Of a stretch of DNA of 64,000 nt, positions 19,276 through 20,539 are shown piece after piece (position 1 is the stretch's first letter; each line of letters starts with the position of its first letter). The stretch is from assembly GCA_009692205.1 (NCBI GenBank), contig SHZR01000006.1:1-64000 (forward strand). The letters are read 5' to 3'. The position numbers and the translations under genes are program-made. The notes under the pieces were generated by a model. The model saw only the letters and a program-made list of their open reading frames with translations. It did not search any database and was not told where the DNA came from. The stretch comes from Gemmatimonadota bacterium. Its GTDB lineage: Bacteria > Gemmatimonadota > Gemmatimonadetes > Longimicrobiales > Gaopeijiaceae.

Positions 19276-20304
19276 GTGAAGATGCGCCGACTCCTCCGCT
19301 CGCGCGCCGGGCTGGCGCTCGCGCTCCTCGCCGACCTGCTTCTGTATGCGGGCGATCACGGCCCCTATGACTACACGGCGAGCAGCTTTGAGATCGCTCT
19401 CGCGGCTCAGGAGCGGCTCACCGCGCACTGGCTGGCGCTCGACGGTGTGGTGGGGACGGCGATCGGCGTCGACGGAGCCGGCCATGCCGTCCTGAAGGTC
19501 TACCTCACCACGCCCGGCATCGCCCTGCTCCCGCGGTTCGTCGGAGTCGAGGTCGTTCCGGAGGTGACCGGCCCATTCCTGGCGCTGCCCGCGTTCGACG
19601 ATGACGGGGCGAGAGCGGACCCGACTCAGGGGTTCGAGCGTCCCGTCCCGATCGGCGTGAGTACCGGCCACCCCCAGGTCAGCGCGGGTACCATCGGCAC
19701 GCGCGTCACGGACGGGCCGCGTGCCTTCGCGCTCAGCAACAACCACATCGTTGCCGCGAGCAACGGAGGGCAGGAGGGCGACCCTCTCCTCCAGCCCGGC
19801 AAGGTCGACGGCGGGCGTGATCCGGACGACGCCATCGGGACGCTCTATGACTTCGAGCCGCTCCGCTTCTGCGAGCTCTCGGGCTGCGCGCCGAACCAGA
19901 TCGACGCCGCGCTCGCGCTCACCACCCCGGACGAGCTCGGGAGCGCCACACCCGAGGGTGGATACGGAAGCCCGCGCACGCGGACCGTCGAGGCGACGCT
20001 CGGGCTCGAGGTGCAGAAGTATGGACGCACCACGGGCCTCACGGTCGGGCGCGTGACCGGTATCCACGCCACCATCGACGTCGGCTACAGGAACGGCAGC
20101 GCGCGCTTCGAGGAGCAGATCGTGATCTCCGGGACGGGCTTCAGCGCGGGTGGAGACTCGGGCTCTCTCATCGTGACCAAGGGCGTGCTGCTCGGCGACC
20201 GGCGGCCGGTCGGGCTGCTCTTCGCGGGCGCGACGGCGACCACGCTCGCCAACCCGATCGACTTCGTGCTGGACCGGTTCGGCGTCCGGATCGACGGAAA
20301 CTGA
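19276..20304 (+). CDS. chymotrypsin-fold serine protease with N-terminal extension domain
   Basis: A 342-residue protein with an N-terminal hydrophobic segment (residues 11-25), an N-terminal domain of about 60 residues (43-105) and a trypsin-like domain. The catalytic triad is readable: H157 in LSNNHIV, D210 in NQIDAAL and S295 in GGDSGSL. The serine motif and the spacing fit the bacterial trypsin-like group rather than the DegP group; no PDZ domain is present. It is probably anchored or secreted. The next gene encodes a free copy of the N-terminal domain, so that domain may act as a removable pro-region or inhibitor. Confidence 0.85.
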   Translation: MKMRRLLRSRAGLALALLADLLLYAGDHGPYDYTASSFEIALAAQERLTAHWLALDGVVGTAIGVDGAGHAVLKVYLTTPGIALLPRFVGVEVVPEVTGPFLALPAFDDDGARADPTQGFERPVPIGVSTGHPQVSAGTIGTRVTDGPRAFALSNNHIVAASNGGQEGDPLLQPGKVDGGRDPDDAIGTLYDFEPLRFCELSGCAPNQIDAALALTTPDELGSATPEGGYGSPRTRTVEATLGLEVQKYGRTTGLTVGRVTGIHATIDVGYRNGSARFEEQIVISGTGFSAGGDSGSLIVTKGVLLGDRRPVGLLFAGATATTLANPIDFVLDRFGVRIDGN

Positions 20305-20329
20305 CGCAGCCGCCGACTTCGCGAACGAC

Positions 20330-20539
20330 ATGGCAGACGACCTGGCGAGCGCCCACCGCGAGCTGACGCGCAGTGTGATGGAGCGCCCCGGAGTGTCGGG
20401 CACCGCGATCGGAGAGAGAGGCGGAAAGCCCTGCCTCAAGGTGTACGTGAGCGACCCGAAGGCAGGTCGCTCACTCCCCAAAGTCGTGGGCGGCTACCCG
20501 GTCGTCGTCGAGACGACCGGGTCCTTCGAAGGCCGCTGA
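20330..20539 (+). CDS. stand-alone copy of the protease N-terminal domain
   Basis: A 69-residue protein without a signal peptide. Its core, GVSGTAIGERGGKPCLKVYV followed by LPKVVGGYPVVVETTGSF, lines up with the N-terminal domain of the protease 26 bases upstream (GVVGTAIGVDGAGHAVLKVY and LPRFVGVEVVPEVTGPF). It therefore appears to be a duplicated domain kept as a separate small gene. A role as a cytoplasmic inhibitor, chaperone or partner of the protease is an inference. It lacks a strong ribosome site and is probably translated from the protease transcript. Confidence 0.7.
   Translation: MADDLASAHRELTRSVMERPGVSGTAIGERGGKPCLKVYVSDPKAGRSLPKVVGGYPVVVETTGSFEGR

Follow-up and report, generated by a model that had tools for sequence, protein, structure and literature searches.

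A conserved two-gene unit of a NAL1-like serine protease and a free copy of its N-terminal domain in Gemmatimonadota

Yeast Ssy5, a protease of MEROPS family S64, is regulated by its pro-domain, which is encoded in cis. In the alpha-lytic protease and the streptogrisins, a pro region stands before the start of the mature enzyme, and we know of no alpha-lytic pro region encoded as a separate gene. Rice NAL1 (NARROW LEAF 1; Pfam NAL1_N, PF25608, and Nal1_C, PF25819) combines a trypsin fold with an N-terminal alpha/beta domain; no paper on the role of this domain was found in the open literature on NAL1 structure and oligomers, and none was found describing a separate gene for a NAL1-type N-domain. 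In Plasmodium, SUB1-ProM is a stand-alone propeptide-like protein that is encoded beside subtilases at a conserved locus and inhibits SUB1 in vitro (PMC6993865).

The window analyzed here, a stretch of 64,000 nucleotides from a Gemmatimonadota bacterium (assembly GCA_009692205.1, contig SHZR01000006.1), contains on its plus strand a serine protease gene and, 25 nt after the protease stop codon, a gene for a 69-residue protein, referred to below as the mini-protein. The pair is flanked by two genes on the minus strand. The features of the pair are as follows.

19276-20304, plus strand: NAL1-like trypsin-fold (S1/S64-type) serine protease, 342 aa (Pfam, invariant triad, homologue model)
19276-19353, plus strand: N-terminal basic and hydrophobic segment, probable export signal or anchor (sequence, protease alignment)
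19381-19587, plus strand: N-terminal domain of the protease, about residues 36-104, homologue of the free mini-protein (BLASTP, hhalign)
19639-19656, plus strand: RPVPIG motif, residues 122-127, start of the catalytic domain (protease alignment, structural alignment)
19744-19746, plus strand: catalytic His157 (invariant across 30 homologues)
19870-19887, plus strand: Cys199...Cys204 loop preceding the catalytic Asp (protease alignment, tree labels)
19903-19905, plus strand: catalytic Asp210 (invariant across 30 homologues)
20158-20160, plus strand: catalytic Ser295, in GGDSGSL (invariant across 30 homologues)
20330-20539, plus strand: mini-protein gene; its 69-aa product is a free N-domain copy that lacks a signal peptide (open reading frame, alignment, purifying selection)
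20432-20434, plus strand: Cys35 of the mini-protein (invariant in 31 of 31 aligned mini-proteins)

The protease is a NAL1-family enzyme of trypsin fold with an intact Ser-His-Asp triad. In a Pfam scan it matched Nal1_C at 31.4 bits against a gathering score of 26.1 (E 1.4e-7), and its catalytic part matched Peptidase_S64 more weakly (E 1.2e-5). An AlphaFold2 model of a homologue with 55-58% identity, from locus L019, aligned with the streptogrisins and alpha-lytic protease at Z 18-19 and with rice NAL1 at Z 16.5 (Foldseek E 6e-13), and NAL1 chains were the top Foldseek matches. The GTG start codon is the same in close relatives, with an alternative ATG possible at 19282. The hydrophobic N-terminal segment reported by the initial annotation can be read in the sequence, where it follows a basic stretch (VKMRRLLRSRAGLALALLADLLLYAG). 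The Cys199/Cys204 pair is conserved in the window's clade and missing in lipoprotein-type proteases, and this pair together with the basic-hydrophobic N-terminus fits an exported enzyme in that clade. Most proteases of the window's clade carry an Asp or Glu in the middle of the hydrophobic segment (ADLL, AELL, LDVL, VEAL; D20 in the window, 19333-19335), and an acidic residue inside such a segment is unusual for a signal peptide.

The N-domain of the protease ends about 18 residues ahead of the RPVPIG motif, in which R122, P123, P125, and G127 are invariant among 30 aligned proteases. In a structural alignment with streptogrisin B, the motif falls at the mature N-terminus of the streptogrisins, the VIA alignment setting model residue 96 against SGPB residue 16. 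The N-domain thus stands directly before the start of the enzyme and occupies the position of a pro region. The conservation of RPVPIG speaks against a simple cleavage site, and an invariant junction favors retention of the N-domain over its removal.

The domain that the initial annotation saw in both the protease and the product of the next gene was recovered by two comparisons. BLASTP aligned protease residues 43-101 with mini-protein residues 7-66 at 27 of 61 identical positions (44%, E 5e-8), and hhalign, run on profiles built from 31 mini-proteins and 30 protease N-domains, gave a probability of 99.4 and an E value of 1.5e-21, so that the likeness is not due to chance. The shared region extends over about residues 36-104, including the preceding helix, rather than over the 43-105 first proposed, and the sequence pattern described for it is present except in its "V.ETG" element, where the protease has PEVTG and the mini-protein VETTG. 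The free copy does lack a signal peptide, and none can be added to it, since the ATG at 20330 is the only in-frame start between the upstream stop codon and the domain. The dN/dS values of the mini-protein, 0.15-0.39 against five relatives and 0.08-0.53 across all pairs, indicate purifying selection. The mini-protein family has no model in Pfam or NCBIfam, and no description of it was found in the sources searched.

Pairing was surveyed in 98 relatives and 395 Gemmatimonadota genomes. Among the latter, 106 contained a strong match to the mini-protein, 111 contained the protease, and 102 contained both, which corresponds to 102/106 mini-bearing and 102/111 protease-bearing genomes (Fisher p 5e-78, a value that ignores kinship). 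Two of the nine genomes scored as having the protease only (G067 and G366) were found on inspection to have divergent mini-proteins beside it. The genes are adjacent in nearly all of the genomes bearing both, across families f1, f4, f5, f6, and f9, and the conserved pairing in relatives by which the initial annotation had proposed to judge its reading is therefore present; protease and mini-protein form a conserved two-gene unit. In family f1, the mini-protein match follows the protease match by at most 60 nt in 50 of 64 cases and lies within 1 kb in another 8. In the other families the mini-protein is generally close behind the protease open reading frame, its larger distance from the profile match being due to a C-terminal extension of the protease, and in family f4 the order is reversed, with the mini-protein upstream of the protease match at a typical distance of 61 nt. 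The spacing in the window's clade is mostly -4 to +25 nt, consistent with translational coupling. When 22 related loci were compared with the window, the mini-protein was common to 21, whereas the flanking DUF4399-like gene was common to 6; none of the window's flanking genes was shared by more than 6 of the 22, and no neighbor apart from the mini-protein has been retained outside the six closest relatives.

A short gene carrying a duplicated domain could be a functionless leftover of the duplication, kept by linkage only. We consider this highly improbable in view of the range of dN/dS (0.08-0.53), the invariant residues, the conservation of the gene across families whose other flanking genes differ, and the repeated change of its signal together with its hairpin cysteine described below. 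An "immunity" type of pair, as first suggested, is unsupported; nothing points to delivery to other cells, no delivery genes were seen in the small flanks read, and PADLOC matched no defense family.

The pair also occurs outside the phylum. In plasmid records of Rubrobacter radiotolerans, a 77-aa mini-protein is encoded 88 nt downstream of the protease (profile E 9e-10), and on a Rhizobium lusitanum plasmid the gene lies immediately upstream of the protease in divergent orientation (E 1e-5). An unannotated mini-protein on a plasmid of R. ruizarguesonis, a weak match by itself, has the same position as that of R. lusitanum. On both Rhizobium plasmids, L159 and L160, the genes immediately upstream of the pair are of the radical SAM and HEXXH peptide-modification kinds. 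In R. leguminosarum plasmid pRlvC (L162, 2156-3384), an 81-aa open reading frame lies 8 nt downstream of a NAL1-like protease and looks like a mini-protein that has diverged strongly, but it reached only E 0.059 in hhalign and was kept as a possible case outside the counts; this locus is bordered by an M48 peptidase gene and a phospholipase D-like gene. No mini-protein was seen beside the Gemmatirosa, Clostridiaceae, and Natronococcus homologues, and a search of plasmids with the lipoprotein form gave no match. A Gemmatirosa plasmid (L167) contains a tandem pair of NAL1-like proteases with N-domains and no mini-protein. On plasmids of Tsukamurella (L166, 2965-4863) and Streptomyces (L168, 2914-4794), a NAL1-like N-domain and protease share an open reading frame with a region annotated as a DNA/RNA non-specific endonuclease.

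The mini-protein domain is not confined to free copies next to a protease. In four loci of one genus (L098, L100, L101, and L102, in genomes G029, G171, G287, and G213, respectively), it forms the C-terminus, in frame, of an apparent beta-propeller protein and carries a two-cysteine hairpin. Genome G053 encodes a normal pair and also a second, lone lipoprotein mini-protein (L099), for which no NAL1-like protease was found within the 7 kb read. The fused and lone forms, like the reversed gene order of f4, would suit a substrate-recognition adaptor, or a substrate or sensor modulating activity, whose kinship with the N-domain reflects shared binding of a ligand such as a peptide or lipid and not binding to the protease. 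We regard this explanation as unlikely, given that the protease is present in over 95% of mini-bearing genomes and that nearly all pairs are adjacent.

The family occurs in two forms that differ in export signal and cysteine content. Most other lineages export the mini-protein as a lipoprotein that carries a two-cysteine hairpin, and in these lineages the protease is likewise a lipoprotein (e.g., L106-L109 and L112-L117). The hairpin, C-x(3-6)-C of the LCDGxPC type, was found in 47 of 104 distinct mini-proteins. Export signals accompany it in 41, a lipoprotein cysteine being present in almost all of these. A further 4 are the fusions to an apparent beta-propeller protein, and those with neither signal nor fusion are L108, which is frameshifted and has its signal in another frame, and L141, which is broken. 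Among the 57 mini-proteins without the hairpin, 53 have no signal and 4 were flagged for one, comprising two lipoproteins with no hairpin cysteine at all (L115 and L146), an artefact of overlapping reading frames (L010), and a doubtful case (L103). Cys35, invariant in the 31 aligned mini-proteins, has a second hairpin cysteine as its partner only in exported mini-proteins. A quick tree of the proteases shows at least three changes of the signal, each with a change of the hairpin, which are too few independent pairs for significance. Such joint change fits the difference between an oxidizing and a reducing environment. Within the window's own clade, L019 has both the lipoprotein signal and the hairpin, either re-acquired or kept.

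These patterns support the derivation of the window's signal-less mini-protein by a switch of compartment. Having neither a signal nor the cysteine hairpin of the exported form, it is probably cytoplasmic, and in the window's clade the two partners probably sit in different compartments after export. The "cytoplasmic safeguard" of the initial annotation thus finds support as to location, and it is a possible role for the window's clade only; it is not the general role of the pair, since in most other lineages both the mini-protein, which is exported, and the neighboring protease are lipoproteins.

Structure prediction offers a lead as to what the domain is. Modeled alone, the mini-protein is predicted to fold as helix-strand-strand-short helix-strand (pLDDT 80). 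Among biologically relevant structures, the model aligned best with NAL1 residues 93-172 at Z 6.0-6.2 (22-23% identity) and with the alpha-lytic protease pro region (3pro_C 87-162, 4pro_C) at Z 5.8-5.9, the latter tied with unrelated folds; since unrelated alpha/beta domains such as the MamB CTD and the ribosomal S3 KH domain also score near Z 6, these likenesses are a lead and not proof. The predicted fold resembles that of the NAL1 N-domain and, more weakly, that of the alpha-lytic pro region. Pfam scans gave no match of NAL1_N to the window's N-domain or mini-protein, and the R. lusitanum homologue reached that model at 28.8 bits against a cutoff of 27. Neither Pfam scans extended to E 5 nor profile searches of the PDB matched the window sequences to the alpha-lytic prodomain, and in the PDB searches the mini-protein and N-domain gave chance matches only. 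The L019 pair (genome G016), in which the mini-protein is in frame after one stop codon, was folded as an artificial read-through chain, with mini-only rows left out of the alignment, as they fell onto the protease N-domain. Single domains of this model are confident (pLDDT about 90), and its pTM of 0.69 says little; the model is used here for the folds of the single domains, and no interface is claimed from it.

Several NAL1 structure entries contain six chains of one sequence, which indicates that the family can be oligomeric. If N-domains oligomerize NAL1-like proteases, a free copy could join or cap the oligomer as an assembly subunit and be no inhibitor. The resemblance of the mini-protein to the N-domain of NAL1, the near 1:1 linkage, and the tight spacing would all agree with such a subunit, but the window's clade combines a probably cytoplasmic mini-protein with a probably exported protease, and we judge an assembly role to be improbable.

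We think it likely that the mini-protein is, in one way or another, dedicated to the protease as its partner because of the homology, the co-occurrence in 102 of 106 mini-bearing genomes, the adjacency, the tight spacing, and the pairs outside the phylum. The chances are about even that it exerts pro-domain-like control, by inhibition, assistance in folding, or both, a reading drawn from the fold likeness, the N-domain at the position of a pro region, and the SUB1-ProM precedent. The free domain would then act in trans as the N-domain acts in cis, binding to the catalytic domain and either restraining it or assisting its folding. Its binding site would resemble the one occupied by the protease's own N-domain, and, like a pro region, it would keep the protease inactive or aid its folding. 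That inhibition is its main effect is a more tentative proposal. The final residue of signal-less mini-proteins is variable (L, R, W, or S), which makes them ill suited to placing a product-like tail in the active site. Against pro-domain-like control stand the middling Z scores near 6, the lack of a sequence-profile link to the alpha-lytic pro region, the invariant RPVPIG, the separate compartments after export, and the unpaired or fused mini-protein domains.

Where both partners are exported lipoproteins, as in most other lineages, such control would take place outside the cytoplasm. The mini-protein of the window's clade, having neither the signal nor the cysteine hairpin, would meet its protease only before export and may act there as a cytoplasmic guard or a pre-export helper, which is close to the initial idea. 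It is possible, though we hold it with some doubt, that these loci represent an unnamed module, widespread in at least three phyla, in which NAL1-family proteases are controlled in trans by a free copy of their N-domain, with lipoprotein and cytoplasmic forms switching as the disulfide hairpin is lost or gained and control exerted outside or inside the cell.

A trans-acting pro-domain-like partner of a NAL1-family protease, whether inhibitor or folding helper, is a reading to which we give an even chance, and it can be set against the described systems. The kind of arrangement is known; the initial annotation had not seen such a pair described, and the concept has a precedent in SUB1-ProM (PMC6993865). 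This family of paired NAL1-type proteases and mini-proteins appears to be undescribed in the sources searched. If the mini-protein controls its protease, the pair would offer a simple bacterial system for asking what a NAL1-type N-domain does, a question that also touches a rice yield gene, and it would be an example of a pro-domain that acts in trans on an enzyme of trypsin fold, one whose exported and cytoplasmic forms could be compared as they occur in nature. The window protease shares with NAL1 the trypsin fold and the presence of an N-terminal alpha/beta domain, but its N-domain has no sequence match to NAL1_N and its N-terminus is hydrophobic. With the alpha-lytic protease and streptogrisins it shares the catalytic domain and the placement of a domain before the mature enzyme start, whereas its N-domain has no sequence link to the alpha-lytic pro region and its junction is invariant and probably uncleaved. 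Ssy5 is related through the weak Peptidase_S64 match to the catalytic part. SUB1-ProM, like the mini-protein, is a free homologue of a protease's N-terminal domain, encoded by an adjacent gene in conserved synteny; its partner is a subtilase and its fold that of a subtilisin propeptide, in a eukaryote, whereas the mini-protein is a different domain beside a trypsin-fold protease in bacteria.
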